From contig JAHLKH010000023.1 of NCBI GenBank assembly GCA_025526915.1, positions 124,001 to 188,000 on the forward strand: 64,000 nt of DNA. The letters are read 5' to 3'. This document shows, one piece after another, positions 30,709 to 52,961 of the stretch; position 1 is the first letter of the stretch, and each line of letters opens with the position of its first letter. Both the position numbers and the translations under genes were made by a program. Below the pieces are notes generated by a model. That model saw only the letters and a program-made list of their open reading frames with translations, was not told where the DNA came from and did no database searches. This DNA comes from Entophlyctis helioformis (lineage: Eukaryota; Chytridiomycota; Chytridiomycetes; Chytridiales; Chytriomycetaceae).

Positions 30709-30819
30709 CTGCCCAGCACGATCCTTTCCCTGTCGTTCTTGTCCTTGTCGTTACAGCGTTGGTGGTCGTTGCCGTGTTGGTGTTGAATGAATGTTGGCCC
30801 CGTTCCGACGATTCAACGA

Positions 30820-31980: not shown

Positions 31981-34090
31981 TCAGTCGTCCATGTCTGCCC
32001 AGCTCGTGCTTGAGGTGGCCGCAGTGGCCGATGTCGTCGTGGCAGATGCCGCAGTGGCCGACTTGGCTGCAGCCGCCGGCTTGGCGGTTGCCGCCGAAGG
32101 AGAGGTCTTGACAGCTGCAGGAGCAAGCGTCACCTTGCGTGGTGGAGACGCAGACGGGGCAGGAGCAGCAGCCACTGATGCTGGCTTGGCCGTCTCAGCA
32201 GGCTTGCTCTTTGCAGCCAGATTGCGTGCATCGTTCGACGGCTGCTGCTTGCCGCTGCTTGATAACTGGCGCGACAGCATGCTCTCGCGTCCAGGCTGCG
32301 CGACTGCACTGTCGGCTCCGCGATTGGTGGTTGCGCTTGAAGGACGCGATCGCCCACGGTCCTCGGCCGGCTTGGCATTCCATCCGTCATTGGCCTGGCG
32401 GGTTGAGACGTCCGAGTATCCCGGATACGCACGGCTCTCGTCGTTGGATTGGCGACGGTCGTTGGGATGGGACCGGGCACCTCCCCGCTTGCCACTGGCG
32501 CTCGCGCCGCGCGACTGCTTGTTCCCGCCGTTGCTGCCTCGCCTCGCACCGTGGCTCTGGCTGCCTGCATTGGCCTCATCAGCACCAGAATACGACCGCG
32601 ACGCCTGGCGGTCAAAGGAGCGGCCGGATTGGGATGCTGGCGGCGAGCTATGTGCAACAGATCCATCATTGAGCGGCCTGAAGGGGGCCTGGGGTTCGTA
32701 GTGGTACTCATGGTGCTCAAGACCCATTTCGTCGCGCTCGTGGATGAACTCCTGGACGACAGGCGAGGTGGCTCGTGACGACCGGCGCCGTTCTCCGGGC
32801 CATCCGCCCGATCGTTCAGTCGAAGACGACACGGACGAAGACATGCGGTCAAGCTGCTGCGAAGGACGCCGCGCGCCGCCTTGGCTGCCATAGCTTGTGC
32901 TGAAATTGGCCGGCTGCTGGCTGTGGTAGCTGCCACGATCGCCCTGCCATGACGAGCCGCCATTGGTGCTCGAGCGTCTGCCTTGGCCAGTTGGGACATT
33001 CATCCAGCCAGTTGGCGCTGCAGCCGAATGAGCCGGTGGCGAACCCCAAGATGAGCCACCAACAGAGGCGCGTGCATCCTGCGACGGAGACCGCATTGAG
33101 GTGTAGGTGGGCGACCCATGGATATAGATCTGCTTTGCCGGTGCAGCCTCGTTGTCATTCTGCTGGCCGTGAACGTGGTGGTTCTGGTGTTGGTGCTGCG
33201 CATTGAAAGTAGACGAAGCGCGACGTTGGGTCGAAGCAGGGCTTCTTGAGGCAGACGCCGCTTTTGGCGAGACTGGCGGGCCAAGACGGTCGTCCAACGT
33301 CAACTGGCGTCCTCTGCTTGTGCTCGCTGCATGATGATGAGGAGGAGCAGGAGCCTGGCTGTCAGACGACTCTGAGCCAGCATACAGACGCGCATCCTGT
33401 GACAAGCGTCGAGGGATCGGACGGCCACGCGATGCAACGCCTGCTGATACGGGAGACGAAGCGGCTGCATTGCGAGAGCCAGGAGCCGCGCCATTGTTTG
33501 GAGATCTGGATGCCGAAAGCGTGTTGACGGACAGCGGAGGGCCGAGGCGCTGGTCAAGTGTCAAGCTATGAACGTTACCGCCAGCCGGAAAGTACGATCC
33601 AGCCTCTGCAACTCGGGCAGAAGGCGACTTGGGCCGCTCAAACAAGATCGCATGGTTGGCGTGGTCATCGCCATGGTGCACGCCATAATGGCTGCTGTGG
33701 TGGTGGCCATAGTGGTGCTGGTGCTGGCCACTGTGATGGTCATACTCCTGATAGCTGCCGTGATGCTGTTGATGCTGCTGCTGGTGGTGGCCCTGGTAAG
33801 ATTGCTGGTGCTGCTGGTACAACTGCTGCTGCTGCTGGTGCTGGTGCTGCTGCTGCTGCAATCGCTGGTCCTGCTGCTGGTAGGTGTAGTTGCTCACGTT
33901 GTTGTTGTGAGCACCACGGCCTCTGCCGGCACCTTTGCCACGACCGCGTCCACGGCCACGACTGCCGCGGCCGCCGGTGCTGCTGGCATTGTCGCCGAAG
34001 CTGCTGCCTGCATAGCTGCTGCCCACGTCGTGGGTCGTCGAGCCGGTGCCGACCGCTGCAGCGGCATCGCTCTCCCAGGCATGCGGACGT

Positions 34091-34122
<32 letters not shown>

Positions 34123-34732
34123 TTGCTCCATGGCATACAAGTCCCAGGCATGCACAGTGGGCGGCTTGGTCTTGTTGGGGCCGTGGGCAGACGTGGATTG
34201 ATACTGCTGCAGCGTCGAGCCGTCGGCGCCGTCGTCAAGCTCCCAGGCGTGCTTCATCGAGGCCCTGTTGTATTGGCTGGTGAGGACGGTTGGTAGTTGG
34301 GTTGCGATGTGTTGGTGGTTGTCGACGCAGGAAGGTCAGTGCTTGCGATGTGGATTGAGAGGTCGCTCGGCAGCCGCACGGCAACACGCCAATCGCAGGC
34401 ACGGCACGAGTCTGCTGAGCCACGGCGGATGCACACAATGCACGCATCGCACGCATCGCACGCATCGCAGCCGTGACAGCCGTGACAGCCGTGAGACAGC
34501 CGTGAGACACTTACGGATGCGTGGGCAGGGGCGGGTGGATGCCGCGGCCTTCATTGGCTGCCGGCCTGCTGCCCGAGACGCTGCCCGAGACGCTGTCCGA
34601 GTAGCTGCTGCCCGCACCAGTACGGGGGGTTGCCCGCGCTTGCTGGCCTGCCTGCGGCTGCATCGACGGGGCCAGTGACGCAGAGGGCGACTGCGATGCT
34701 CGGGGCGCTCCACGCCTGCCCAAGTCTGTCAT
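31981..34732 (-). CDS. Low-complexity polyQ/RGG-rich protein with repeated HAW(E/D) and LTLDxRLGPP motifs
   Basis: Two exons (34732-34515 and 34264-31981) join in phase with a GTAAGT donor for 833 residues. No globular domain is visible. Three short HAW motifs (KHAWELDD, VHAWDLYAM, PHAWESDAA) lie near residues 75-145. A 12-Gln run, an RGG-like box (GRGSRGRGRGRGKGAGRGRG) and a long Gln/His/Tyr stretch follow. Next come two copies of LTLD-Q/D-RLGPP, and the protein ends in SWADMDD. Such composition is typical of RNA-binding or granule-forming proteins, but I cannot name a family. The terminal Trp-Ala-Asp motif echoes the HAW(E/D) repeats and may be a shared peptide ligand. The intron contains a GCATCGCAC/CCGTGACAG tandem array. 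Confidence 0.7.
34436..34506. repeat. Tandem repeats in the intron of the RGG/polyQ gene
   Basis: gcatcgcac units (three or more copies) followed by cagccgtga units (four or more copies). Confidence 0.8.
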
Positions 34733-35123
34733 TCTGCTCTGCGTCTGCTCTGCGTCTGCTCTGCGTCTGCTTTGTGTCTTCTCTGTGTCCGCTGTGTCTG
34801 CTCTGCTGTCGTTGCTCTGCCCTGATCTGATCGGCCTGTCTGTCTGTCTGGCTGGCTGTCAACTGACTGGTGGCTGGGTAGGTGGGTGGCAACACAAAAG
34901 CTGGCCCGATATTTATACAATTACCAAGGATTTTGGAATTAAATTCGTCGCAAGAGGCGTCGAATAGATGCCCGCGTATCACACGATGGAAGGTTCGAGT
35001 CAGCAACGAGCATGCGACGACAGGCGGGCGAGGCACATCCAACGAAGTGCTCACCTTCTATTGAAGTGACCCGTTAGGTCGATCGGGAGGTGCCCCGATT
35101 CAAAGTGTTGGTAGTCAAACAAG
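34733..35123. other. Upstream region of RGG gene and 3' flank of Fanzor gene
   Basis: About 390 bp holding tctgctctgcg repeats near 34735-34770 and a locally AT-rich segment at about 34905-34945 (gatatttatacaattacc). No gene or tRNA fold was found, despite a ggttcgagtc stretch at about 34990. Confidence 0.5.
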
Positions 35124-38100
35124 TCACTGTGTGGGATGAGTGACAGGTGACTTGCTGGCACGCTGTGGCTGTCTTGGACGCTGTGGCTGTCTTGGTCGCT
35201 GTGGCTGTCTTGGACGCCGCTGGTCGACAGGCTGATCCGGTGCTGGAGGCTGCTGGACGACAGGCTGACCGGCTGGCGTGTGTGTCAAGTAGAGCGGCCG
35301 TTGTCCATGGAACAGATGCCCCTGTGCGACCATCCCGATGTTGGTGGCTCCAAGCACGTCTCGGTGGTAGACAGTCTCGCAGTCTGTGCACTCGTAGCGT
35401 CGCAGGTTGGTGCGGTTCTTATCTGGGATCCGCTGCTTGCACTGCGGGCACATCTGGCTGGTCAGGTTCTCGTTGCAGCGGTAGATCTGTGTGTGTCAGT
35501 TGGTGCATGATCGTGTGGTCAGTTGGTGCACAGATGGATAGATGGATGGCATGGCATCAGACGCACATAGGCATATCCAGACGACCGCAGATGCCTGATG
35601 AGAAACTTCTCAAACACAGCATGCCGGCCACCTTGGCCTGTAAAGTCGATGCCAAATGCCCACACAACGGGAATGTCCTTCTCTGTTGGCTTGTCACAGT
35701 GGCCTTGAGATGCATCGGATGCACGCTCTCCAGTCTTTGATCCTGCCAGATTCATGATGCCCTCAAGAGCGTTTCCGCGATCAGACGTGCTGTTGCTGCG
35801 CTTGGTGAACCGCTTGGCCTTGACCTTCTGTGGAATGCCATGCCATGCCATGCCATCCAGTGCAATCAGCATGGCGATCAAGCAGTATGGCGGCCGTGTC
35901 AATGGGCATCCAGAAACAGAGAAAATGTACCCGTGCATTCAGGAATGGCGTGCAGTACGCATGGCAGCGCAGATCCCAAAAGGCTCTCTCGCCTGCTGTG
36001 ACGTTTGGATCGGCATGCTTTGCTGTCTTGAATGCAATGGCCGCCTGGATGTCGGCTGCCTTGGCATATCGATTGTTGAGCCTGGCACAATAGACAGGCA
36101 CTGTGAGTTGATCTGGTCAAGAGTGCGCGTGGCAGAGTCATTGCATGCATACCACCGCTGAAGGCTGTGCTCGGCTCGTGCCATGCCAGAGGAGAGCACG
36201 TAGTTGGACTCGAGGGTATAGGTGAAGGTTGCCAGATCCACCAGCATGCTGGATGCGCCATACAGGTACCGCTCGCCCCAGTCAAAGCTGACAACACGAA
36301 CAGTCTCATAGCCTTGGTTAGTGAACAGATTGTTGGCATCAGCAACATTGGGCAGCCACTGGGATGCATTGAAGTTGCGCTTGGCCTGTCATGCCATGGC
36401 ATGAGTGAGGAATGTGCAATGCATGTGCACCAATGTGCGAGGTTGGCATGCAAGTGACTTACAGGATTGGGTGTGTATGGCCTGGTGGCTGACGGGTTGG
36501 CTGGATCGGCGGCTGTAGATGGCATGTCAGTCGGTGTGGACAACAAGTGTGCGTCTGGATTGGCACAGCAACTCACATGTGCCATTCAGGTAATCAGGCT
36601 CGCAGTCACCAGTATTAGTCGCATCAATGAGGCTTTGAAGCTGGGCAGAAAACGCCTTATTGGATGCTCGTTTGGAACCTGCAGAGCAAGGCGGCAGTCA
36701 GAACCAATGTGTACACCAAAACATTCAAGCACGGCACATACTGCAAGGCGACTTTGGACGGTCTGTGCGATAATCGAGAGCCAGCTGGCAGATGGTGTAT
36801 CCATCCGTCATGATGTTGCTCAGCCGTGTCCGCTTGGTTGGTCTCGCTGGACGCACGGCCTTGATCGCAGCCTTGATATGCTCCTCGTGCTCCTTGCGAG
36901 TCATACGCCGATAATCAGTCCCTTGCGTCGCCTTGGCTATGGCGTCTTCTTTTGCCTTGGCGTTGGCCGCGTCCATATCTGCTTGGGCCTCTGCCGGCGT
37001 TTGATACCGTCGCTTGTCCGAGGCGAGTCCAGGAAGCAGGATGTCCATGACACACAGCTCGCGGCTTTAGCTGAATGCGTGCTTGATCTGCTTGTTGAAT
37101 GACTCGAGTGTCAAGGCCTGTGAGCCAGGCTCTTTGAGAAGAGTGGAGTGTTAGTATCTCATCATGTAAGCATGGCATAAACAAGTGCGACCTACTGCTG
37201 ATCGCAGCCAGGATCTGCTCTCTCAATCCTTTCAGTGCTGGATCCTGCTTGCCATTCATGCGCTCATCCTTTGTCCCCATCACCGACCAAAAGAGCGTGG
37301 TCTCGGTGACAAGGACAAATGGATCGCGGCTGGATGGCTGCGGGCACAGCTTGATGCTCCTTCGTCCACCAAGGTTGACCAGCGCGTTGAACCTTCCGAT
37401 CTGCGACAGCAACTCATCAAGCATGATTGCAGCAAGCACGTCCAACGCTGGAGGTAGCTCAACAGTGACCTTGCCCTCCGCGTCTGAAGGCGTGCTTGAC
37501 GTGGTGTCCTTGGCAGTCTTCTTGCGGCATGGCTTCTTGTTCGCAGCACCCTCATTGGCCGATGGAGTGCTGGACCGGTCTCTCTTGTGAGTTGCTTTAG
37601 GAGGGGTGGCATCCTGAGCGGCCGTCGATGGGGCTGGCGCAACGCTCTCGCACCTCACTTTCTTGGCCGCCGATGGTCCTGACGCGGTGTTGTCGGTGGC
37701 AGCACGCTTGGCAACAGCAGCCTTGGCGGCCTTGGCTTGCTGTTTCAGGTGCTTAACCCACGCTACTGCCTGCGCGTAAGATGCACCGGGTACCAGCTGG
37801 AGGGCTGCATCAACCGCCAGGTCGAACTGACTTCCAATGTAGTGCCGTGCGAGTATGGTGCACACTTCTCTGGCGAGGTTGCTAAAGATGTCATTCACTG
37901 CATCCGGGCAGAAGCTGCCGTCCAGGAGGTATGGTAGAGCCGGCTGTTGCGCGACGTCCCGCTGCATGTCCTTCGGGATCGCGACGTCCTGCTGCTTGCC
38001 TTTCTTGGTCTCATACACCTTGACAGCGTTGGTGTGCACCATCCCCCGCGTCCATTCGCGATGGAACATCAGCTGCATGGCCGTGACGATCCACGCGTTG

Positions 38101-38740
38101 GTTGTCTCCATGTCATGCTGCGGCTTGGCCATCTGCTTGCCAGTAAAGATGTACGACAAGTGGCGCAGCATGCAGGTCACGGACATCTCGCCACCAGAGG
38201 TGCTGCTGATGAATGCCGTGAGCAGCTGGTTGGCTGTCGGCACTGCTCCTGCTGCTGCTGCTGCTTGCTGCTCAGGCTGCTCGTGAATGTCGGGCTGATC
38301 GGCGTCCTCAGCATCGTCAATGTCCTTGGCGTCCTCATACTCATCGACATCCTGAGCGTCCTCGTCATCCTCAGTGTCCTCATACTCTTCGGCGTCCTCG
38401 TCATCCTCAGTGTCCTTTGACTCCTCGGCCGTCTTGGGCTTCTCGACCTTCTCGTGCAGACAGATCTCGAGCGTCATGCCTGTTGCCAGCTGTACCGGGT
38501 CTCCAAAGCGAGGGTCCATGCTCTCCTGATTGTAACAACTTGAACCGTACATGAGGCGTGCAAGGACGTCCTTTCCGAGGGTAAATCGTCCAGACAAGAA
38601 CTGCGCCTTGGTCACGCCGCCGAGGCCGTCAATGCTGGCATGGTCGCCGAGATTGTCGATGCCTTTGAAGTCGAGGTCCAAGAAACAGTGCCTGACCTGC
38701 TCTCCTTCGAACCACTTGTACATGTGGTACTTGGGGGGGA
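35124..38740 (-). pseudogene. Fanzor-type (eukaryotic TnpB-like) RuvC nuclease gene, decayed, 5' end cut by a gypsy element
   Basis: Seven exons: 38740-37196, 37131-36742, 36678-36577, 36512-36462, 36385-35932, 35827-35567 and 35486-35124. The C-terminal half shows Fanzor/TnpB hallmarks: IMTDGYTICQLA, a RuvC-I aspartate in VVSFDWGERYLYG, WAFGIDFTGQGG, and a glutamate in CNENLTSQMCPQC that leads into a CxxC...CxxC zinc ribbon. RuvC-III is VYHRDVLGATNI. The N-terminal exon (MYKWFEGEQ...) is long and carries an acidic DTEDDEDAEE-type insert and a Lys-rich linker. Two lesions break the frame. One is an in-frame TAA at 37069-37067, after a clear TACTAAC branch point and acceptor. The other is a one-base shift near 36100, between LDQINSQ and VPVYCARL. 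Fanzors are RNA-guided DNA endonucleases spread with transposons and viruses. No terminal inverted repeats were found. The 5' exon abuts the gypsy LTR directly. Confidence 0.75.
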
Positions 38741-38985
38741 TGTAACGGATGCCGCCGCAGTCCCGTGGTCACGTGACCTGCTGGCATTGATCTGGACGCG
38801 CCTTGCCCGGACTTGGCTTGGCCCTGTTGTTGTAGTTGTATCCAGCCGTAAGCCTGTATACTCACTGCCCCTCTGCCACCAGGTCTGTGCCTGAGTCTCA
38901 ATGAAGTCGAATCCAGCCGTAAGCCTGTATACTCACTGCCCCTCTGCCACCAGACGGCCAGCCGCTCTCAACGAGGACAGTTACA
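38741..38985 (+). repeat. 5' LTR of gypsy element
   Basis: 245 bp, TGTAAC...GTTACA. It contains the palindromic E-box TCACGTGA at about 38769 and an internal direct duplication of 42 bp (38841-38882 and 38912-38953), also present in the 3' LTR. Confidence 0.95.
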
Positions 38986-39053
38986 ACAACAACCAACGCC
39001 ACCGACGCCGCCAGCCGCCGTTACCTGCGGCGTCGATTTCTTTTTGTGCGCCT

Positions 39054-40546
39054 ATGGGCCTGTCTCGCACGCCCACCCCTGGCGCCGGCCCTGCCGGCGC
39101 TGCGGCCGACGCCGACCCGGACGCCAACAGCGCCTCATTCGCCTCGCCAGACTCCTCGTTTGCCGACGAGCCGTCACACCTCCTGCATGGGTTTACGGGT
39201 AACTCTATCATCTGGGCTGATAGCCGCACGCGTGATTCTGGGCTTGGCTCCATGGCCAGCGGCATGTCTGCATCCCGCCTCCCTCAGGCTGGCTCTCGTG
39301 GCCGCCAGGGTGCTCCATCGGGCAATGCAACCTCTGCAGTGGCCTCCAGCACGCCCGCGTTTCGCCACTCCTCTGCCGCGCCTCGGGGCGGCGGAGGTGC
39401 TCTGTTGGGCGGCGCGGGCGGCTCGCTCGCTTTTCCCGTCCACTCTGTTGGCGCCGCGTCCGCTTCTGTGCACCAGCTGCAGGATTCGGCCAGCGAGGAC
39501 GTCCGGATCACACTGGATGACCACGCCGCATCGCTGTCTGCGGTTCAGGTCTCCATCGAGGACCTGCAGACCCGTCTGCATGACACCCACGAGCTGCTAG
39601 TCCAGCAGGCGGACTCTTTCACCACGTCTGCCGCGTCCAATGAGGAGCGTCTGGCCGCTCTGTTCAACTCGGTGTCAGCCAACACGGCAGCCGTGCGAAA
39701 CTTGCAGACGCAGGCCACCAAGACCGTGGAATCGATGATCGCCCTTAGCAAGCAAGTTGCCTTGGCCCAGCAGTCTGCGGACAAGGCTGTCGCTGCCACG
39801 GCTGCCTTGCAGGCGTCGCGTTCGGCCCTCGCGATTGGGTCCTCGGTGGACGCACGCCTGCCAGCAGCCGCGGACGCCCGTGCACCAAACCTCGCCAAGG
39901 TTTTCACAGACTGCTTGGGTGCCAAGCAGGTACCATTCAGCGGATTTGTGATGACCAAAGGCCCGGCTCCCTCAGTCGACTGGAACGCCACTCACAAGAA
40001 CCTCAAGCCATTTGTCATTGCAGTCGGCGGAGCATACAAGGAAGCCTGCACCACTGCCGGCGTCGACGCGATCCCATTAGGCGCCATCTTCTCGCTACTG
40101 CTGCCTTATTTCTCTGGCCGCGCACTCGAGTTTGTCACCGCATGGCACGAGTCGCATTCTGCCGACGATGATCTGTTCACGTTCCCTCAGTTCCTCGCCG
40201 ACCTCCAGTCGCTCCACCGCAACCCAGAGCGGATTCGCAACCAAGCCGAAGGGAAGCTGGCGAGCCTGTTCAAGCCGACGCTGTGCCATGGCCGCGCCCC
40301 GCAGGATTGGATTCTGGAGGCCGAACCGCTGTTCAGCGACGCGGGATACACGGATGACCAGAAGCTCAGATTCCTCCGTGCCCGCATCAAGGATCTGCCC
40401 CCAGGGAAGTTCAAGACGTATGCCGCCCTCCGCGACGCGTTCTTTGAGGATCACTCAGAGGCAGCTGAGCACGCCCTGGAGACTGCCGCCGCCACTGCTC
40501 TGGCAGATGCCCACAAGGCCCTGAGGCCCAGTCAAAGCCCAGCTCT
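39054..40546 (+). CDS. gag: Gag-like polyprotein of gypsy element
   Basis: Open frame from MGLSRTPTPG at 39054. The frame itself is open from 38901 to 40958. The N-terminal third is Ala/Gly/Ser-rich. Two coiled-coil-like stretches follow (SVQVSIEDLQTRLHDTHELL region and QTQATKTVESMIALSKQVAL). A capsid-type region then contains FSLLLPYFSGRALEFVTAWH and RIRNQAEGKLASLFKP, similar in pattern to the retrotransposon gag domain. No CCHC zinc knuckle is seen, which is common in chromoviruses. The pol frame lies one base back, so a -1 shift somewhere between about 40500 and 40958 is needed to make Gag-Pol. The site was not pinned down. Confidence 0.8.
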
Positions 40547-43040
40547 GGCAAGACAGCTGCCGCGTCGCCGCGTTCTTGGAGTTCCTCGTCGCCCAAAGCT
40601 GCCACCCCCGCGCCTTCAGGCAGCAGCAGCGCGTCTGAGACGCGTAAGGCTGCCTCGCCTGCTGCGACAGCCGACCATGCTGGCCGATCGCCTAGCCAGC
40701 GCCAGCACCACTCTAAGGTTGGGCGCATCGCGGCAAAGGCCAAGGCACCCGGGTACGTTCGCTCGCCCCCTCTGGCTCCTCCTGCTCCTGCGGCTAAGCA
40801 CGCTTCGGCGGCTAAGCCTGCAGCCGCGTGTAAGCCCAATGCTGACACCGAATCTCCATCGGTCCCTGCCCGTGACGACGGCGCACCAGCAATGGCTCCG
40901 GCTCGCAGTCGCTCGAAACCGTCTCGTCGTTCTCAGACGACGGGACGCAGTACAGTGACGCAGATGAAGAAGAGTGACCCATTGGGTGGTGTTGCGAATA
41001 AAAAGATGCCCTCTGTGGCCCCTGATCACCCTGTTTGTCCTGTGATGCCGCCATCGCGGCTAAAGGAGGGGCACCTTGCCCCGGTGAGGCCCATCACCAC
41101 ACACCGGTGCACCTTTCCGGTGTTCCTGGACAATCGCAGCGCCAGCGTCCTGGTGGACACTGGCAGCAGCGCGAATCTAGTGGCTCGCCATTGGTTGGAT
41201 GCCAATGGCCTGCTCGCCGCTGCCCGGCCGTTCACCCGGCAGGCGGTGACTCTCGAGTTTGCCAACGGCAACTTGCAGAGGCTAGATTCAGAGGTATACC
41301 TCACGCTGGCCGACAGATCAGCTGCGGTCAGCCAGGTGCGGTTCCTCGTCTATGACGGTGTGGATGATGTCATCCTGGGCATGCCATGGCTGCGCACCAC
41401 CGCGGAGGCGTCATTCAACTTCCGTCGCGGCGTTTTCCGCTTCTCAACCGAGTCGCGCCCCGATGTGCACCACATCTGGCAGCACGAAGACGCTCCGCCG
41501 TCTGCTGCACCCCACAACCGGCCGCACTCTGACATCGTGGTTACCATGTCGGACATCCTCGCCCATCCTGACGAGTACGCGGAGCTGGTCTATGTGGATG
41601 ACCTGCCTGAGGACCGTGAGGCAGCTGCGGATGCGCGCCTTCGCGTCGCGGCTGCAAACGGCCTCACCCCGGACGAGCTGAAGGAGAAGTACCCCTACCT
41701 TCCAGTCTGCCCGGACGAGGAGACGCAGAAGGCATTCATCGACTACTACGAGGTCTGCTGCCCGCCGCAAGGCCGCGCGCACGACTCGGAGTTCGAGATC
41801 GCGATCCCTTTCATTAAGGATGCGCAGCTGCCGCCGCGTCGTGGCCTCAAGAAACTGAACCAGGATGCATCCGTAGCGCTCAAGAAGCAGCTGGACGAGT
41901 GGTACACCAAAGGTTACATCCGCCGCTCGTCATCGCCTTTGGGCGCCGGCACGCTCTTTGTCCGCAAGAAGGATGGTTCGCTGCGGTTGGTCATTGACTA
42001 CCGCGGCTTGAACAACATCTCGGTGAAGTTCCACAGTGCGATCCCGGAGATTGAGACCCTCCGTGATAACTTGGCAAACAAACCCTTCCGCTCGATGCTT
42101 GACATTCGCGAGGGCTTCCTTAACATCCGTGTTAAGGCGGAGGACCAGTGGAAAACTGCGTTCTCCACCCAGTTTGGTCACTTTGAGTTCACGGTCATGC
42201 CTTTTGGGCTGACCAATGCTCCGGCTGTGTTTACACAAGCCATCCAGTCGACGCTCAATGAGCTGCTGGGCACGTGCGTCTCGGTGTACATGGATGACAT
42301 CTACATCTACAGCGCGACGTACGAGGAGCATATCAAACACCTACGCACTGTTCTCAAGCTGCTACTGAAGGCTCAATTGTACATTAAGCCATCTAAGTGC
42401 ATGATCCTGCAGCAGGACATTGAGTTCTGCGGTCACGTGCTCTCGCCCACTGGTTATTCCATTGCGCCAAAGCACTTGCAGGAGATGGCCGCAGCGCCAC
42501 ACATCTCAAACACAACCACTCTGGCAACTTGGCTGGGCAAGCTGGTATGGCTAAAGTCATTCATTGGTGGGCCGAACCCTGCAAAGGCGTACGCCACCAT
42601 GTGCTTGCCACTATACAAGCTACTGGCCAAGAATGCCAAGTGGGAGTGGGGCCCTGCTCAAAAGCAGGCTGTGGAAGACCTGCGACAGGCAGTGCTGAAA
42701 GCGACCGAGCTGCGGTTCTTTGACCCGGCTCTGGAAACGCATGTCTACACTGATGCCAGCAACTACGTCATTGCCGGCTACCTGTCGCAGATCCACCCAG
42801 ATGGCGAGAAGCTGGTGGCCTGCTGGTCACGTAAGCTTAGCCCAGCCGAGATGAACTATCCAACCCACGAACGCGAGTTGCTCGCCATCGTGGAGTTCTT
42901 CTCGCGTTTCCGTCATCTGCTGTCCAGTGTGCGCTCTGTCACGCACACTGACCACAAGGCGCTGGTCTGGTTGGCCACGCAGCCCCACCTGTCGGATCGG
43001 CAGGCTCGATGGGTCCTGTCTCTGCAGGAGTTTGATACAT
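40547..43040 (+). pseudogene. pol: Pol part 1: aspartic protease, reverse transcriptase, RNase H
   Basis: Continuous frame. The aspartic protease carries VLVDTGSSANLV and DDVILGMPWL. Reverse transcriptase carries LRLVIDYRGLNN, FTVMPFGLTNAP and the catalytic VYMDDIYIYS. RNase H carries HVYTDASNYVIAGYLSQ, the ERELLAIVEFF glutamate and THTDHKALVWL. At about 43036 the frame shifts by one base: the conserved continuation YVPGELNSLADLLSRD is read in the next frame. That is not a usual programmed site, so this copy is probably defective. The alternative is a base error in the assembly. Confidence 0.88.
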
Positions 43041-45095
43041 CCATGAGTACGTGCCTGGCGAGCTCAACTCGCTGGCCGATCTGCTGTCCCGCGATCCCTC
43101 AAAGGCCCCTCTCTGCACAAACTGTCGCTCGCCTGTCCCGATCCGTGCTGCCAATCTGCGCACTGACTCTGACTGGGCGAAAGACGTGCGTGCGGCGTTG
43201 CCGGCCGACCCATTCGCCTCCAGACTGCCTGGCTGGAAGGCCGACCCATCGTCGCCACGCCGGCCGACCGCAAGGTCGTAGTGCACATGGAGTGCTTGGA
43301 TGGCGCGTGGTGGTACAAAGGCAACCGCTTGTATGTGCCGCAGTCTCTGCGCGCGGATCTGCTTGCCCACTACCACGACTCTCCCTTCGGTGCGCACCAG
43401 GGACGTCAGCGGACCACCAGCCGCTTGTCGAACCGGTACTTCTGGCCCAGAATGTCCGAGGACATTGCCGCCTACGTCGCCTCATGCGACGTGTGCCAGC
43501 GCCACCGCACGCCCAACCACCGGCCCGACGGCCTGCTGCATCCACTCGCGATCCCGGACGACTGCTTCTCGAGCGTCGCCATGGACGTCATGTTCCTGCC
43601 CGCGGGCGGACAAGACGATGCGTTTGATGCTGCTCTGGTTGTGGTCGATCGCCTGTCCGGTCTCTGCGACGCGTTCCCGTGCCGCCGCTCGTCGTCGGCC
43701 CAGGAGCTGGCCGAGCTCTTCCTGACTCGCTGGGTCTGCTCGGGCAAGGGCTTCCCGGTCGACATCGTCTCGGACCGCGACGCCCGCTGGCTGTCGGCCT
43801 TCTGGTCGAGCCTCTGCACTGCTGCCCGGATCAAGCAGAACCTCAGCACGGCTCGCCACCAGCAGACTGACGGCTTGGCCGAACGCAGCATCCGCACCAT
43901 CAAGGATGCGCTCGCCAAGGCGGCCGATTACCACGGCTCTGACTGGCCGCTGCTGCTCGGTCCCACCTGCTTTGGCCTCAACTGCGCGCCGTCTGCGTCG
44001 TCTGGCTTTGCACCCTTCTTCCTGGCGTTTGGCCGCCACCCGCGGTCCTTCCCGTCCGAGCCAGCCCTGGCACCATCTGCCGCGGCCCGCGACCTGCTGC
44101 TGGACATGGCTGCTGCTCGCGACTCGGCCATTTTGAATCGGCGCAAAGCCCAGGCAGCCATGGCCGTTCAGGCAAACAAGCGTCGCCGCCGTCACCCTGC
44201 GTACAAGGTCGGCGACATGGTGCTCCTCAACGCTGAGGGCATCTCCTGGCCGGCGGACTCGCACCGCCCGCCGCTCACGGCCGCCAAGTGGCTCGGCCCC
44301 TTTGCCATCACCAGCCTGGACTCTGGTGAATCTGGCCTCAACTACACGCTTGCGCTGCCTGCCTCGCTGCACCGCGTCCACAACGTGTTCCATGCCGACC
44401 GGATCTGCCCGTATGTCGACCCTCTGTCTGCGCCCACCGGCCGCAAGGATGTGCCCTCCCGGCCTGACCCCGAGTACCACGCCGACGACGGCACGTCGGA
44501 CAACTACGAGGTCGAGCGGATCGTTGACTCGCGCACCTATCGCGGCAAGATCGAGTATCTGGTCAAGTGGGTCGGTTATCCAGCCGACGACAACACATGG
44601 GTCCCAGCTGCCGACATGCGCAAGGCCCAGGACCTCGTCAAGGCGTTCCATGCTCGGCCGACCAAGGCGCCTAAGGGCAAGGCGTCCAAACCGGCTCAGC
44701 CCACGCACGCGGCTCCTGCACCGGCTGCCCCTGCCCCCGCCGCGGCGCCTGCTCCCACGCAGCCCAAGGCATCCAAGCCCTCTCGCCGCAAGCGCACTGC
44801 GCCTGCTCCTGCACCAGTGGCCCCTGCTCCAGCAGCAGCCACGCCCGCGGCACCTGCTCCGGCTGACGAGCCGATCGCACCTGCTGCACCCGCATCTCCC
44901 TCTCTCTCTCCATCTTTCCCTCCTCTCCCTCCTCCCTCTTCTCCTCCTTCCTTCTCTCTCTCTTCTCTTCCCCCTCTCAACCATCCCGCCCCACCTCGTC
45001 GCTCTGAGCGCACGGTTCCCCGTCCTGTGTCCTATGCGTCCATCGTTGCCCGCACTTCTTCCTCTCGTGTGTGCAACGCCCATGCATCCTCTTAG
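43036..45095 (+). pseudogene. pol: Pol part 2: integrase with C-terminal chromodomain
   Basis: YVPGELNSLADLLSRD runs in one frame to about 43215. The integrase then opens in the third frame (WLEGRPIVATPADRK, then MECLDGAWWYKGN). Zinc-binding HHCC is visible as HYHDSPFGAH followed by CDVCQ. The DDE catalytic core is AMDVMFLPAGG, VSDRDARW and the E in QQTDGLAERSIRTIK. The chromodomain reads YEVERIVDSRTYRGKIEYLV followed by WVGYPADDNTW, with its aromatic residues. A Pro/Ala-rich tail ends at 45095. Chromodomains of this type direct integration toward histone-marked chromatin. Two one-base frame changes separate this block from RNase H. Confidence 0.88.
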
Positions 45096-45140
45096 TCGCT
45101 GTTCATCCACTCTTCGTTCTTATAAGTGGCTGTCTACGCT

Positions 45141-45148
45141 GGGGGGAG
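45141..45148 (+). other. Polypurine tract of gypsy element
   Basis: ggggggag directly before the 3' LTR, the expected plus-strand primer position. Confidence 0.75.
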
Positions 45149-45394
45149 TGTAACGGATGCCGCCGCAGTCCCGTGGTCACGTGACCTGCTGGCATTGATC
45201 TGGACGCGCCTCGCCCGGACTTGGCTTGGCCCTGTTGTTGTAGTTGTATCCAGCCGTAAGCCTGTATACTCACTGCCCCTCTGCCACCAGGTCTGTGCAT
45301 GAGTCTCAATGAAGTCGTATCCAAGCCGTAAGCCTGTATACTCACTGCCCCTCTGCCACCAGACGGCCAGCCGCTCTCGACGAGGACAGTTACA
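45149..45394 (+). repeat. 3' LTR of gypsy element
   Basis: 246 bp, TGTAAC...GTTACA, about 98% identical to the 5' LTR by eye. Differences include gcgcctcgcc for gcgccttgcc, gtgcatgag for gtgcctgag and one inserted a. Confidence 0.95.
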
Positions 45395-47670
45395 AAATGC
45401 CTCGGGTGTTGGCCTTTGCTTTATACTTGGCTTTCTGTTTGTTTGGGTCTGGAATGGCATGGTTGACAAAGAAGGTGCTGTCAGTACACAATGTCACATC
45501 ACTCCAATGCAAGCAGTACGTACTCGGAGTCGATAGACGCCGGAACGGTACGCATGCAAGATGGATGATCTTGTTCAACTGCCTCTGAATCACCCTAGCA
45601 GCTTTCTGTCCAGCGGGCAGTAGGTCGAGTTAGACACTTCAAGGCAAGATATGCACATGCATCCAAGTCATGCAGCAACGTGCAAGTGTGTGCCGAATGG
45701 TCTGATTTGCTTTGTTGAACTCTGCACGCACTTCCACCGCAGGAGACTTCTCGCGTACAATCTCAAAAAGTTGCACACTTGCCGCCCTGCTGATTGTCGC
45801 CAGAACGTCACGGCCAACGACTCCATTGTGATTGCCGGCAAGGCGACCTGCCGCATGCTTGACAATGCAATTGAACGCGACAGGACATCGCTTGACCTCC
45901 TCCAGCGTAGTGGCCATTTCGGCGTTTTTGACAATGCTGTCGAGGTGCCGGCCAATGTCATCCCGCGTAAGGTGGACAATGTTGGGATCGCGGTTGCCTT
46001 GCTGCAACTTGGGATGAACAAGGACACATCCAGCATGTAGCTGACAGCTGCATCACGATCCAACAATCGCATCAAAGACAGGAATGACGAGTTAGTCATG
46101 CAAGACACACCAAGAGATCACATGCGTGCATGCATGCATACCTTGCTTGAGGCGTGGCAGTCCTGTCAACAGCCGTGCTGTTGTCATTGCCATGTTGCGA
46201 TGGATGGTCAGTATGGCTCTATGCATGCAAACGCGTCCATGCCACCATGCCATAGCCAGTCACGCAATGACTTGCCTCTGCACAGGTGCGTTGCCAGATG
46301 GGCTGCTGGAGCCAGTCGGGGCTATGAATGATTTGGCCAATGCCCCCGACTCATCATGATTGATGAAGACGTCGAATGCATTTAAGAACGACTTGACCAG
46401 AGCCTCGCCTCCAACCTTCCACAGATCCTCGACGTATGCAATCCTGATTGCCTCTAAAAACTTCTCGGCCTTGTCGGGCTCGTGGAGTTGAGCACAATAC
46501 TTGGCTGGATCGTCAAAGCCCGCCTTGCTTGCCTCGGCATCGACAAAATCGTTGATGAACTTGGAGGCAGCAGGAATACCTTCCAGGCAGTGGGAGTAGC
46601 AAGGCGAGTTAGTTGGCATTGCAGCATGGATGACAATACAGAGCATGAAGCCACACATTGCACGAACCACGGTCAGGGCAGTTGTGACAGTCGTTTTTGG
46701 ACATGGCGGCGGCCAACCGGCTTGCCAAGGGGACATTGTACACCCTCAAGGCCGAGGTAGTGGAGGCAATGCCCTTGTGGTTATATGACTTGATTGGGCT
46801 GAGGCCGCCCTTGTGCATGCATGTTGTGATGACCGGGCAGCGACCGTCGCAGTGTATTATGAGATCCGAGTCGTTACAAATGACGGCCATCGGTGTGTTG
46901 CTGATGCGAGACAAAGACTGTTAGCTGTCAATCATAACAGACAGATGTCATGGCAATCTATACCTTGGATTGCTTGCATACTTGGCAGCGTGGCTGGCAA
47001 TACAGACGTCCGCCTCATGGTCGCACCAACAGACCTTGTGTCGAGACCCAGAGCCGAGAATCTCCGCGATTGCCTGTTTGATGTTGCCCTTGTCGGCCTG
47101 TGTCAATGTGAATGAACGTTGCAGAGCTTGCCGCTCCTTGCTGGATCATCAACCAAATGTTAGAATTGTCTGAATGCGACAGTCTCAATGCGACACAAAC
47201 AAGTGAACGTACCGCATCAGATGCCGCCATCGCTTGCCCTTGCGGCGCTTGAGAATGCACTGTAGCACGACGCCCGTCCAATGCAGCACTTGCTGGGCAC
47301 GGCCCTTGTGCACAGTCTTGATCCCAGAATCGCCGTTCTGGCCGTCCACATGAAAAATGTATGTGTGCTTGTCACCGAACTTGTCAATAAGCAACTCGAT
47401 GACGGGCGTGAGGATGGTCACCCACTCGGCTGTGGATGGTTGTTGATCATGCTCTCCTGCCCCCCTGAAGTGCGGATAGAGCACGCTCACCGCATCGACA
47501 AGGAAGATGCCCGTAATGCTGGATGTGGTCGCCTCGGTGTTGTTTGGATCTCGTGAATGCAGTCCATTGGCAAGCACAAGCTGCGCGATCTGGGACCAAG
47601 GCACGTCTTTGTTTTATACGCCGACGGACTTTGCCTTTGTGGCACGTGCAGATAACCCAATGACCCCCAT
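45395..47670 (-). CDS. XPG/FEN1-like (PIN-fold) nuclease gene, 3' end cut by the gypsy element
   Basis: Eight exons keep phase at every junction: 47613-47213, 47140-46964, 46900-46668, 46579-46272, 46218-46142, 46047-45657, 45594-45524 and 45477-45395. Exon 1 has GIFLVDAVSVLYPHF and YIFHVDG, matching the acidic residues of the XPG N-domain. The XPG-I signature is clear: WCDHEADVCIASHA (compare 'EADA.LA'), then MAVICNDSDLIIHCDG. LASRLAAAMSKNDC and the next exon's IPAASKFINDF sit where FEN1 has 'VSGNDY...GIG..TA'. The 5' end is uncertain. MGVIGLSARATKAK from an ATG at 47670 fits the family's MG(I/V)xGL start, but an in-frame TAA at 47616-47614 separates it from the rest, and TATAAAA overlaps there. 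The last exon ends at the LTR in frame with the Fanzor exon beyond it. This family includes structure-specific DNA nucleases; the substrate here is unknown. Confidence 0.65.
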
Positions 47671-47679
47671 GTTGTGCGA

Positions 47680-47840
47680 TCGTGCGATTGTTTGTGTGTG
47701 CGGTCGCGGTCGTGCGGTCGTGGCCGTTTGTTTGTGTGTGCGGTCGTGCCTGCGATCCTGCGATCCTGTGTGTCTGCGAGCGATCGTGCCTGCGATCCTG
47801 TGTGCCTGCGTGCCTGCGTGCCGGCGGTGTGCCGGCGTGC
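47680..47840. repeat. Short tandem repeats upstream of the XPG-like gene
   Basis: Irregular arrays of tgcgatcctg, gtgcctgc and cggtcgtgcggtcg units. Low-complexity sequence without coding signature. Confidence 0.7.
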
Positions 47841-47949
47841 GTCGCTGGAAGCTGAGCGATGAGGATTGATAGTCTGTGAGCTGGGATTCTTATCATGCGC
47901 CGAGTGCACAGGCAGTGGGGTTTGTAACTTGCCTCTCGAGAGATCTCTC

Positions 47950-49702
47950 TCAACAGACGCAGACCTCGGCAAAAGTCAGATCAGGCAGTGCGGTTGCAGA
48001 CAGTTGGGGCAAGCAAAGAGCAAACACAAGTTTGCTTTGATTTTCCACCAAACAGCCAAACAATGCAATGGGCTGTGCATGGTCCACAATGCCGCCTCTT
48101 CCACCAGTACAGCCATGTTTGTTGTGGATCTCGTGGCATGGATCTGTCACAAGGCGTGTGTTCTCATCCACGACCGTGCACGTGCTGCTGACTGGCTGGC
48201 TGGCTTGCATTGACTTTTGTTCAGGTTGACGCCTGGTTTGATTTCAATTTCATTCTTCTTGGCTGGATTGCCATGTCACTCTCAGCAGCGATGCTGTTGA
48301 TGCAGATCGTCTCCACTTTGAGGCTGGCACGCAGCCCGTCTCGGAGGTGATTGCACTGCTTATTCTGCGCTGTAGGTGATCAGGCATGCTGCTTGCGGTA
48401 CTCTGCACTATGCAAGTCAAGTTGGTAGATGCTGTCTTTGAACAAGAGAGTGATCTCGCTCGCCTTGCAGTGCATCACACAGTCAGTATTGCTGCAGTCT
48501 TGGAGGCACGAGACCATGCCAAGAGGCTTGCGAATGTCTTTGAGAGGCACCACCCATGCCACATGGCTGCCGAGGTTCCCTTTGAGAGAGTGACCATTGC
48601 CGCCATTCTCCAGTCGCTGTGGGTCGAAGCCCTTGATGATCGTGCTGATGTGAGACACTTGGCTGCATTGGATGCACTTCTGAGGGCCGTCTGCAATCTC
48701 AATGAATGACAGCAGCTCGATTGTTGTTCACCAGTCGCATTCCTTGGATATCATCGTCGTCACCATGGAAGCCTGTGGCATGGCCCAGAGGCATCCATAT
48801 TGGGAAAGAATCCATTGGGCCTGCTCTACTTGGTGGGGTACCCTGCGACTTCTGGTGGCACAGTCATGGGAATGAAGTGCTGTCTTTCAAGGTCAGGCCG
48901 ATCCAAGCAGTCATGGTTTGCCAGCAGCCTTCTGGCTGTAAAGCACCAGATTGCCTGTGATGACCGCTAACCGTATTGGATCGTCCTGACACAAGGATCT
49001 CTTGTAGCATTGCAGCGAGCCCCTCTCCGAGTAGCGTCTTCTCAGTCAATGTCCCACTGCATCCAACAAGCGTCCTGATATGCATCTGCATTGTGACCCA
49101 GTGCGATGCAGTTGGTGTTGCCTGACTGGCCAGCTGGTCCATGGACAGGTAGGCCGTTGGCGCACTGCCTGCATCGCCCCTCTGCTCTGGATTGTCCTTG
49201 TCAACACGCACAGTGCATGCAAGACTGGGATCGTCAGGACCATCGCCATCATCGTCGTTGTGGTTGTTGAATGAATCGAGAGTGCTTGGTCTGTCTGGCC
49301 ACTCCAGTTGCTGCTCAGTGGATCGCATCCAAGATGCCATCACACCAAGTGCATTGTGGCCAGACACGCCTGCCAGCACTCGCGTCCTCCTCACCAATCT
49401 CGTCTGGATCAGTGTCTCCGAGTGTGCTGCTCGTCGGGTGTGCTGCCACTGCCTTGTTTGGCATCCAAGTCGGCATGCCAATCCAGCTATCCAGCAAGCA
49501 GGTCCTGCAGCCAACTCCAAGGATCGGCCCATTGAGCACGTCTCAGTGGCTGCTCATCTGCTGCTGCTGCATCCCATGTCGCAGTCGGAAAGCACCAGGC
49601 AGCTCGGCCCTGCGATGCCACTGCTCTCGCTGTCCTCTTGAACAACAACCAGATCGCCCTGTTCACGGCCGTCTTGCCGACGTCCCTTGCTGTTTGGAGC
49701 CA
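47950..49702 (-). pseudogene. Decayed intron-containing gene of unknown function
   Basis: Several minus-strand stretches read like protein but cannot be joined cleanly. MAPNSKGRRQDGREQGDLVV starts at 49702. GVGCRTCLLDSWIGMPTWMP lies near 49500. A long stretch follows with AYLSMDQLASQATPTASHW and TEKTLLGEGLAAMLQEILVS (49310-48985). GFHGDDDDIQGMRLVNNN comes next, and ADGPQKCIQCSQVSHIS leads to a stop at 48380. Between VNNN and LLSFIEIADG the frame shifts by one base near 48725, and other joins need weak splice sites. A further open stretch (DPCHEIHNKHGCTGG) lies at 48200-47950. I do not recognise a family; CxxC and CxDC motifs suggest metal binding. It has the same orientation as the XPG-like and Fanzor exons and may belong to the same accessory element. 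An alternative first exon begins MPDPDAAALA at 50088. Confidence 0.35.
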
Positions 49703-50258
49703 TGAGACAAGCACACAGTCAGTGCCAAGACAACACAGACACGGCCGTCAGACTGCTGTGCCGTCGTCGTCAAGTGGCAATGGAGCATGCCTGGACAGAC
49801 AGCGAGTCAACGCACCTGCCTGCCTGTCTGCAGCCTGCCTTCTGTCCGCCCGCCTTGTTGGGCACGCCTCTCAGACGGCCACGACCACGCTGCTCTGCTG
49901 CATGGCCTGGTGCATGGCCTGCTGCATGTCACCATGAGCAGTGAGCCTCGCTGTCTCCCCTGAAGGACTCGACCAGCAAGCGAGTGTTGTCCCATATCCG
50001 TGCTGTCGCCTGCGTCGTCGTTGTCGTTTGGCTCGTTGTTGCTTGTGTGCAGTTGGGCGGCAAGTGCAGCAGCGTCTGGATCTGGCATGGTGCGTTGCTG
50101 CTGTGCTCGCATCGCGCAGTGTCTGCACCGCGCAAGGGCTCTCTTGATCAACCAATCACAGCGATTCCACCAGGGGTAATGGTATGAGAACCGGGCCCAA
50201 AAGCGTGTTCGTTGCAAGTGAATTCAATCGACGGTCATGAGCATGGAAAGGAAGCAGC

Positions 50259-52961
50259 TTAGGCAACATCGGCGATGCGGAAGGCCTTGGCCACATCGCA
50301 CATGTTCTGGAGGGCCGCCTCGGTCTCGACCCAGCCGCGCGTCTTGAGACCGCAGTCGGGGTTGACCCACAGGAGGCCCGTGTCAATGTACTTGGAGATG
50401 GACACCAGACGCTCCTTGATCTCGCTGGCGGGGGGCACGCGCGGCGAGTGAATGTCGTAGAGGCCGGGGCCGATGCCGCGCGTGTAGCCGTGCTTCTCAA
50501 ACGCGCGCAGGAGCTTGAGGTCCGACTTGGAGTTCTCGATCGTGATGCAGTCGGCGTCCAGGTCCGAGATCGACTGGAAAATGTCGTTAAAGTCCGAGTA
50601 GCACATGTGCGTGTGGATCTGCGTCTCGTCCTTGACAACCGTCGACGACAGCAGGAACGCCTTGACCGCCCAGTCGAGGTACACCTTCTGCGCCGACTTG
50701 CGCAGGGGCAGACCCTCGCGGATGGCGGGCTCGTCGATCTGGATCGCAGGCAGGCCGGCACGCTCAAGGTCCTGCACCTCCTTGCGGAGCGCGAGCGCAA
50801 TCTGGTACGTGGTGTCCTTGCGCGGCTGGTCGTCGCGCACAAACGACCACTGGAGCATCGTGACCGGGCCAGTCAGCATGCCCTTCATGGGCTTGCTGGT
50901 GAGCGACTGCGCGTACACGGACATGGCGACCGTCATGGCGACCGGGCGGCTGACATCGCCGAAAATGATCGGGGGCTTGACGCAGCGCGAGCCGTACGAC
51001 TGCACCCAGCCGTTCTGCGAGAACACGTAGCCCTTGAGCTGCTCGCCAAAGTACTCGACCATGTCGTTGCGCTCAAACTCGCCGTGCACAAACATGTCAA
51101 GGCCGACCTTGTCCTGGAACGCCACAGCCTCCTTGACCTGCTCCTTGATAAAGCGATCATACTCGGCCTCGGTGATCTCGCCCTTCTTGAGCTTTTGGCG
51201 GATGATGCGGACCTCCTTGGTCTGCGGGAACGAGCCGACAGTCGTGGTCGGGAAGGACGGGAGGCGGAGCTTGGCCTGCTGGACACTGGCGCGGACGCTA
51301 AAGTCGTGCTGGCGATGGAACATGTCGTCCGAGATGTTGCGGAGCTCAGCCTGGACAACGGGGTCGTGGATCAGGGGCGACACCTTTCTGTCCTCGATGC
51401 ACGCCTTGTTCTCGGCGAGCTCAGCGGCAACGGCGGCGGGCTCGACGGCCGCCTTGGCAATGACGCGGATCTCGTTGAGCTTTTGGACAGCAAACGACAT
51501 CCAGGACTTGATGGTGGGGTTCATCTTGACCTCGGCCTCGAGAGAGTGCGGCGAGTGGAGCAGCGAGCACGAAGGAGCAACAATGACGCGGTTGGCGCCG
51601 AGCGTGGCAACCGCGCGCTGGACAATCGCGACCGACTTGGCAAGGTCGTTCTTCCAGATGTTGCGGCCGTTGACCACACCGATCGAGAGCGACTTGGTCG
51701 CATCGGCAGCGACAAAGGGCAGCACAAGGTCAAAGTCCTCGGGAGCACGGACAAGGTCGACGTGGATGGCGTTGATGGGGAGCTTGGCAATGAACTCGAT
51801 GTTGGTGGCAATGGTGCCAAAGTAGTACGTGACGAGGATCGAGAGGTCGGGGACAGCCGCGCGGATGGCAGTGTACGCCTTCTCGAACTTGGCCTTAAGC
51901 GTGGCGGGCTGGTCGAGCGCGAGAATGGGCTCGTCGATCTGGACGGAAGTCGCGCCGGCAGCCTGCAGCTTCTGGAGGAGCGAGGTGTACACGGGCAGGA
52001 GCGTGTCGAGAAGCGAGAGCGTGTCAAAGTCGGCAGCAGCAGTCTTGTCGCCCTTGCCGAGAGCAAGGAACGAGATGGGGCCGAGGAGAACGGGGCGGGT
52101 GATGATACCGACAGCCTTGGCCTCGAGGAACTCGTCGACAGGCTTGGTTGTGTTGAGCGTGAAGGTTGTCTTTGGCGACAGCTCGGGAACAATAAAGTGG
52201 TCTGTGATGGATCAAGAAAGCAAGAGATGAACTAGTGAGCATGTGCACCAGTTGACACTGCTGCAGCGAGATCTCAGCAAGGGAGCGACTGAGTGAGCAC
52301 ATACAGTTGGTGTCGAACCACTTCTTCATCTCCATGGCAGGGACGTCGATGCCCTCGGCAGGACGCTGGAGACCGCGACCCATGGCAAAGTACTGGTCGA
52401 CCTTGGAGGGGATGTTGGCATAGCGGTCGGGGATGACGCCAAAGAGGAACGAGTGGTCAAGGACGTGGTCGTAGAGCGAAAAGTCGTTCGAGGGCACAAA
52501 GCCGGGAGTGAGGTAGGTGCTCTGGAGCTTCCAGTGCTCCTCGCGAAGAGACTGGGGATGGTCAGATCGGGTCGAGTCGAGTCGAGTCGAGTCGAGTCGG
52601 AGAGGATGGGAATGGGGATTAGGTAAGCAGAGTGGTGTGGAAAAGGCCGGATTGCGCAGCAGAATAGGACGTGATCGTCGAGTCAGCAAGAGCGTGTCAG
52701 ACTGCATGGATGACTGCAAGGATGACAATGCCAATTGACGGTGCAGGCGAGATCCCTCTGCGTAGAGTAGCAGGGTATGACAAGACACGACACGACATGG
52801 CACGGCACGACATGGCACGACAAGACACGGAGACGCACCTTGGCACCAGCGAGGAGCTCGTCGGACGAAACCTTGCCGCCCCAGTAAGCCTCAACAAGCT
52901 TCTTGAGCTGGCGGTTGGAGCCCATGCGTGGGAAACCGAGGTTGGATGCAATGACAGACAT
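50259..52961 (-). CDS. MET6: Cobalamin-independent methionine synthase (METE)
   Basis: Three exons join in phase (52961-52839, 52551-52305, 52201-50259) for 770 residues, the standard size. The N-terminal half starts SVIASNLGFPRMGSNRQLKK and includes EMKKWFDTNYHFIVPELSP and QIDEPILALD. The C-terminal catalytic half begins LPSFPTTTVGSFPQT and contains GWVQSYGSRCVKPPI, DEPAIREGLPLRK, and all zinc ligands: His and Cys in HTHMCYSDF, Glu in ITIENSKSD, and Cys in VNPDCGLKTRGW. It transfers a methyl group from methyl-tetrahydrofolate polyglutamate to homocysteine in the cytosol, as in yeast Met6. Both introns are in the first fifth of the gene. Intron 1 carries a gtcga pentanucleotide array and a cluster of cacgacatgg-like repeats precedes exon 1's donor. 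Confidence 0.98.
52571..52600. repeat. Pentanucleotide tandem repeat in METE intron 1
   Basis: Five gtcga units plus a sixth variant (gtcgg). A second short array (acgacatggcacggc) lies at 52785-52825. Confidence 0.85.

Follow-up and report, generated by a model that had tools for sequence, protein, structure and literature searches.

A decayed transposon copy in the chytrid Entophlyctis helioformis, probably descended from a gene joining a FEN-like nuclease to a TnpB/Fanzor-family nuclease

To our knowledge, the known Fanzor and TnpB nucleases cut DNA and leave the processing of the ends to the host. Academ DNA transposons are said to carry an XPG-type nuclease, together with a transposase of their own and target-site duplications of 3-4 bp, and we know of no TnpB-family nuclease among them. 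Here we analyse a stretch of 64,000 nucleotides from the chytrid Entophlyctis helioformis (positions 124001-188000 of contig JAHLKH010000023.1, or C23), compared with the genome of 29.6 Mb in 482 contigs; the whole stretch is called the window, and positions are counted from its first letter. The window contains what is probably a decayed copy of a large terminal-repeat DNA transposon family. The fusion protein encoded by the family would, as we read it with some confidence, measure roughly 1,900-2,000 residues and comprise, in this order, an XPG/FEN (Exo1-like) nuclease, a linker that is variable and rich in lysine and glutamine, and a TnpB/Fanzor-type RuvC nuclease with a zinc ribbon. No description of a Fanzor or TnpB fused to XPG/FEN1 was found in the literature searched, whose coverage left subscription journals mostly outside.

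The whole inserted element, including a nested gypsy element, occupies 34903-50197 on the minus strand (15.3 kb; about 9.8 kb is estimated for the element without the gypsy and with a lost piece restored). At its 3' limit the match ends at 34902/34903 in 32 of the 38 other copies listed, and at its 5' limit two copies (L080 and the internally deleted L007) match up to 50197 and a third (L081) up to 50199. The termini read GGCCCG...CGGGCC, and comparison of the end sequences gives terminal inverted repeats (TIRs) at 34903-34925 (plus strand, element 3' end) and 50175-50197 (minus strand, 5' end), which agree at 18 of 23 letters counted by eye. Directly outside lie the two copies of a target-site duplication, CAAAAGCT at 34895-34902 and CAAAAGCG at 50198-50205, with 7 of 8 letters the same. 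Judged by eye, the flanking 8-mers are likewise equal at 7 of 8 letters in the copies on C168, C67 and C39, the last with its own 5' terminus altered, and at all eight in that on C151; among seven copies fetched for this check only the one on C67 was usable, those on C172, C140, C66, C35, C40 and C239 offering no usable pair. The element thus shows the 8-bp duplication of hAT-like and other 8-bp-duplication transposons.

An empty site was found on contig C377 (L076), where window positions 32907-34898 are joined to 50200-51702 around L076 2003-2005, with the target in single copy and its A run one A shorter. Compared with the window, one flank there is 97.3% identical (11 mismatches and 43 gap positions over 2,020 columns) and the other 99.9% (2 mismatches over 1,503), so that either the insertion is polymorphic or the locus is duplicated. 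It is virtually certain that the element is real and that both nuclease halves were transposed together. A host gene split by the gypsy was ruled out, since the whole unit is repeated in the genome and has an empty site.

The signature of TnpB and Fanzor proteins is D-X(125,275)-[TS]-[TS]-X-X-C4 finger-X(5,50)-RD (PMC3627910). According to a second source, Fanzors proper have a glutamate six residues before the first CxxC and an almost exclusive DPG at RuvC-I, and proteins with the relocated glutamate fall into one DPG clade and one D-Phi-G clade (PMC10711439). The back half of the window gene consists of eight in-phase minus-strand exons of about 1,030 codons, which end at 35124. They are exon 12 (37196-38738, most of the exon, which in the window copy starts PPKYHMYKW), exon 13 (36742-37131, with one private stop), exon 14 (36577-36678), exon 15 (36463-36512), exon 16 with RuvC-I as FDWG (36156-36385), exon 17 (35931-36081), exon 18 (35567-35827) and exon 19 with the relocated glutamate, the PF07282 zinc ribbon, RuvC-III as HRD and the terminal stop (35124-35486). 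The internal stop does not occur in the relatives aligned across it. PF07282 clears its cut-off of 26.3 bits both in the genome search (44.8) and on the spliced piece (43.2), and all parts of the signature were located by eye in the first row of alignment A3 (D7, TS195-196, the C4 finger and HRD). The relocated glutamate stands in ENLTSQMCPQC in the rows of A3 for the window and for the copies on C366 and C1.

The sequence-only reading had placed a Fanzor RuvC nuclease on the far side of the gypsy, and a half with RuvC and zinc ribbon does lie there; the name Fanzor has to be qualified, as does XPG for the front half, for which no Pfam match exceeds its cut-off. Speaking against a Fanzor in the strict sense is the RuvC-I motif, which is DWG and not DPG in the window, C366, C1, L002, L005 and L008 and fits the motif of the D-Phi-G clade. 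Since the glutamate is relocated and the motif is DWG, the back half is, as judged by its sequence, a TnpB/Fanzor-family nuclease and not a proper Fanzor.

The front half was read from eight minus-strand exons. Exons 1-4 splice into a single frame with the acidic motifs, from an ATG at 47670: exon 1 (47213-47670) has the start MGV, the acidic residues of VDAVSVLY and HVDG, and one private stop; exon 2 (46964-47140) has EADV; exon 3 (46671-46900) has NDSDL and KND; and exon 4 (46276-46579) is followed by what appears from the phase to be a GC-AG intron. Exons 5 (46142-46177) and 7 (45520-45605) were placed by eye against the gene model of the C366 copy, and exon 6 (45680-46047, limits approximate) by eye and by its codon pattern. 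Exon 8 (45395-45477) is truncated at the gypsy, and the window lacks its remainder, all of exons 9-11 and the first part of exon 12. The XPG-motif exons claimed for this strand are therefore present with EADV, NDSDL and KND, but their start had been put at 47613, an apparent start that arises from the private stop in exon 1. That stop occurs in the window only, among ten aligned rows (the window and eight other copies, C52 twice). With one in-frame stop in each half, the window copy is a pseudogene; relatives without either stop exist.

Both halves recur in the genome. The PF07282 zinc ribbon (TNB) was scored at 150 places, of 205 candidates, the XPG-half query gave 206 matches counted exon by exon, and the block around PPKY gave 82. 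For the linkage count, one row per copy was copied by hand from the XPG rows listed (150 of 214 candidates scored), which left 103 loci, and these were paired with the 150 scored TNB rows. A TNB lies on the same strand 0-12 kb downstream at 50 of the 103 listed XPG-half loci, the window included, and upstream at none; the distance is 5.59-6.14 kb in 39 of the 50. On the opposite strand there are none downstream and two upstream. The arrangement in the window is thus beyond chance, the halves being paired at many loci.

The frame can be followed through the linker in other copies. In the C366 model, 12 exons lead in phase from the ATG to the PPKY exon, except for two frameshifts and an acceptor that lacks AG in that copy, and exon 4 is followed by a GC-AG intron. 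The linker was compared at 19 loci, of which 18 were counted (in L061 the motif was not found). At the four introns that separate exons 8 to 12, projected by alignment, GT and AG are kept in all 18 copies. Exon 8 measures 231, 255, 267 or 279 in 12 of 17 complete rows, differences that are multiples of three, and the length of exon 9 is divisible by three in 15 of 18. In subfamily B (C1 and C162), exon 8 seems shifted under the C366 splice sites and in frame with a neighbouring donor. From exon 8 into PPKYH the sequence is open and in frame in 8 of the 18 copies. The proposal that a transposon carried one ancestral gene for both an XPG/FEN-like nuclease and a RuvC nuclease resembling Fanzor is therefore borne out by the paralogues. 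The frame also continues, at the DNA level, on both sides of the points where the sequence-only reading had allowed for a boundary, namely an XPG-like end soon after NTRGI or a Fanzor start near MYKWFEGEQ.

Selection was estimated from the ratio of nonsynonymous to synonymous substitution rates (dN/dS). Between subfamilies it is 0.11-0.40 for XPG exon 3 (19 pairs with finite dS) and 0.14-0.45 for XPG exon 2 (14 pairs, without C407), one infinite-dS pair and one pair within subfamily A being excluded from these ranges. The values are 0.34-0.51 for exon 6 and 0.17-0.52 for the start of exon 12 (6 pairs each). For the PPKY block, 8 of 9 loci tried gave 0.07-0.50 (28 pairs, close pairs included). 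These ratios, in which the high dS values are near saturation, indicate purifying selection between subfamilies on both halves and also on exon 6 and the beginning of exon 12, with no clear sign of it on exon 8.

Several results weigh against a single protein. A TNB partner was found for none of the other 53 of the 103 listed XPG loci, a class that lumps contig ends, unscored candidates and decay. The linker is not open or not in frame in 10 of the 18 copies, and constraint on its exon 8 looks weak, with dN/dS between 0.17 and 1.08 over 6 pairs and at least 0.77 for three of these. Three database proteins, all from E. helioformis, match the element; they are short front-half models that stop shortly after exon 4 (P0001), after exon 3 (P0002) and within exon 2 (P0003), in a search restricted to proteins of about 205-653 residues. 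A full-length protein search with region 1-480 gave 0 matches among 7,519 candidates at E<=0.01, and one with the RuvC half 0 among 6,742 candidates. The short models, the weakly constrained exon 8 and the ten interrupted linkers would all suit two adjacent genes, one FEN-like and one Fanzor-like, which share a transposon and move together but are translated separately. Such genes would hardly call for splice sites kept in every copy at the four introns from exon 8 to exon 12, for length changes that mostly preserve the frame, or for a frame that stays open into the PPKY exon in eight copies, and we regard this arrangement as unlikely. That the family gene codes for a single fusion protein is, on these sequence comparisons, the likely reading.

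The front half carries seven acidic residues (D59, D109, E195, D197, D222, D224 and D282) that are invariant in all six subfamilies and present again in P0001 and P0002. They follow the same order as the motifs of the host FEN1, matched through what we take to be the active-site acid positions of FEN1, and the seven acids of the XPG/FEN superfamily are thus found in order. With the front-half model, all seven Foldseek matches at E<=0.001 are to plastid exonuclease 1 or human Exo1, and every entry down to rank 23 belongs to FEN, Exo, T4 RNase H, XRN1 or Pol I. Matches to XPG_I_2 that stay below cut-off (E 0.0038 and 0.014) point in this direction too. It counts against a FEN-type nuclease that the structure model is poor (mean predicted local distance difference test score, pLDDT, 48), which makes the fold match one of low confidence, and that PF00867 has no match on the element at E<=10. 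PF12813 reaches 17.2 bits on P0001 against a cut-off of 24.2. Because the Pfam XPG cut-offs are missed, we describe the front half as FEN-like in its working and do not file it in those families.

These shortfalls would be expected if the front half were a PIN/FEN-fold protein that had lost or changed its catalysis and kept a structural or DNA-binding role. Seven acids that stay invariant across six subfamilies, the others being 35-57% identical to the first, and dN/dS well below 1 are hard to reconcile with such a loss, and we think it improbable. Catalysis of the FEN type remains the probable function of the front half, as far as its acids and predicted fold can tell. Searches further afield gave nothing firm: A1 against viral contigs produced 7 pattern matches and the host FEN1 against genome contigs 18, none confirmed in either case, and sequence searches of the PDB with both halves returned no XPG or Fanzor match and only weak zinc-ribbon matches (LaTranC and an AI-designed nuclease). 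As a separate observation, the RuvC exons of two other aligned copies reach 85 and 89% identity with the window, as against 35-57% for the XPG half; this contrast between subfamilies suggests module exchange or gene conversion.

Upstream of the gene lies a 5' module (49007-50174) that is about 92-95% identical in many other copies and in which no gene was recognised. A Pfam transposase was sought in nine open reading frames of the window and three longer frames of relatives, without a match, which counts against the overall reading; the transposase may be spliced or act in trans. If it acted in trans, the nuclease fusion could be a decaying passenger in a family amplified by others. The internally deleted copy L007 (contig C35), in which the element 5' end is joined straight to the RuvC exons, would fit a passenger, as would the failure to find a transposase and the stops or frameshifts in the window and in further copies. 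The purifying selection that both halves show between subfamilies suggests instead a long-term need for the gene, and a mere passenger is somewhat harder to credit than either alternative above.

Other features were noted in and around this region. A frame of 109 codons at 48380-48709 on the plus strand, opposite in direction to the fusion gene, has no Pfam match; in six diverged relatives (66-72% identity) it is open in three and carries one frameshift in the other three, and its mismatches have no codon-position bias. At about 49.2-50.2 kb on the plus strand, frames of 229-316 codons occur in C52, C151, C78, C25 and C168 and are interrupted in the window; three of the five were scanned and gave no Pfam match. 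Two Pfam matches, one to a scorpion toxin (E 0.0038) and one to a parvovirus domain (E 0.089), fall below cut-off and were taken as chance. Near their 5' ends, the copies on C168 (L084) and C151 (L074) carry CCAATCACAGCGATTCCACCAGGA-like subterminal repeats, each about 30-35 bp long, which resemble many transposase binding sites. Four copies on different contigs (L096, L097, L098 and L107) have the same sequence directly outside the 3' end, which points to repeated surroundings or joint duplication. The host genes flanking the window element are a cobalamin-independent methionine synthase (50259-52211, minus strand) and a tetratricopeptide-repeat (TPR) protein (30567-31727, plus strand).

The nested element (38741-45394, plus strand) is a Ty3/gypsy element with a chromodomain and no part of the ancestral gene. 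Its long terminal repeats (38741-38985 and 45149-45394) are identical at 241 of 246 aligned positions, and it has reverse transcriptase, RNase H, protease, integrase zinc-binding and chromo domains. Removing it had seemed to give a native in-frame join, NTRGI-F-PPKYHMYKW; this join is an artefact, since relatives hold extra sequence there. The copies on C427 and C39 are about 93-95% identical to the window on either side, as far as 45395 and from 38740 onwards, and between these two points there are 1128 bp in C427, 1166 bp in C39 and 1165 bp in C52. Past the right breakpoint, all six relatives compared (C78, C168, C49, C427, C39 and C52) continue with the same further sequence. By this comparison the window has lost about 1.12 kb beside the gypsy, which could explain why the gypsy has no flanking target duplication. 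The copy on C151 has the gypsy junction of the window on the Fanzor side and a different one on the other (47807), so that recombination between gypsy copies is a likely cause of the loss. Related gypsies or other insertions also interrupt the copies on C427 (near window-equivalent 37999), C151 (near 47807) and C52 (near 45729-45735), the last with a 7-base overlap of window matches that hints at a target duplication. That the gypsy brought an unrelated XPG gene beside a Fanzor by chance, as its missing target duplication and the piece lost beside it might suggest, is refuted by the paralogues, with both halves in order at many loci, uninterrupted spacing at the gypsy point in C427, C39 and C52 and an empty site that marks one insertion carrying both halves, and we give it practically no credence.

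The end of the element next to the 3' flank is strongly conserved. Across 21 aligned copies, the 200 bp closest to the 3' end, which terminates ...ATATCGGGCC, have a mean column identity of 93%, a value biased to good matches because 20 of the 38 listed ends were fetched. In the Fanzor literature, the Fanzor1 guide-RNA scaffold is reported to include the terminal repeat (among PMC10432273, PMC3627910, PMC10711439 and PMC11423790). A conserved 3' end with a terminal repeat is as expected of such a scaffold, and by this analogy 34903-35104 (minus strand) is a candidate for it. Its folding speaks rather against this, with covariation in 1 of 49 pairs and a single-sequence folding slightly better than that of shuffles (z -1.7, 12 of 200 being as good).

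Taken together, the features of the family would allow the following sequence of events. A transposase, perhaps supplied in trans, would mobilise the element; a guide RNA made from the conserved 3' end would take its guide from the flanking DNA; and the RuvC half, to go by its family resemblance, would cut the empty site left by excision. The FEN/Exo1-type half, if its acids and fold are a guide, would trim or resect the 5' end or displaced strand, and repair would thereby be steered to copying from the chromatid that still holds the element. We put at about even the prospect that this is a two-nuclease RNA-guided homing machine, an R-loop-forming cutter with its own FEN/Exo1-type nuclease in which cutting and commitment to recombination are coupled. 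With equal reserve, the machine would belong to a lineage with DWG and the relocated glutamate, outside the DPG Fanzors, present at dozens of loci or more in one chytrid. The narrower step, a coupling of guided cutting to an end-trimming role in repair, is offered more tentatively, from sequence motifs and a structure model, and falls a little short of even.

If true, a natural fusion of a RuvC nuclease with a flap or 5'-end nuclease would couple RNA-guided cutting to resection in ready-made form. Such a coupling bears on how these elements raise their copy number, and designers of editors that promote templated repair would have a natural template in the fusion. The family would also add a eukaryotic TnpB-family branch whose active-site motif lies outside the published Fanzor fingerprint, and the empty site and the many copies make direct tests possible.

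Compared with known systems, the front half resembles Exo1, FEN1 and XPG (XPG-Rad2) in the order and rough spacing of its seven acids, in its MG start and in its top fold matches; it differs in being too divergent for the Pfam XPG cut-offs, fused to a RuvC nuclease and borne on a transposon. The TnpB proteins of IS605 and IS607 share with the back half a RuvC domain with a zinc ribbon and, in many cases, the D-Phi-G motif, whereas the protein described here is eukaryotic, spliced and fused to a second nuclease, and no TnpA was seen. The Fanzor carrier SPu-1 has a 33-bp TIR and TA (PMC3627910), from which the ends and the 8-bp duplication of this element differ. Fanzor1 and Fanzor2 are matched in PF07282, in the D...[TS][TS]xx-C4-RD pattern, in the position of the glutamate, in carriage by a terminal-repeat transposon and in a conserved 3' end at the flank; set apart from them, the family has DWG at RuvC-I, many introns and, in front, an XPG/FEN-like half of about 370 residues with its linker.

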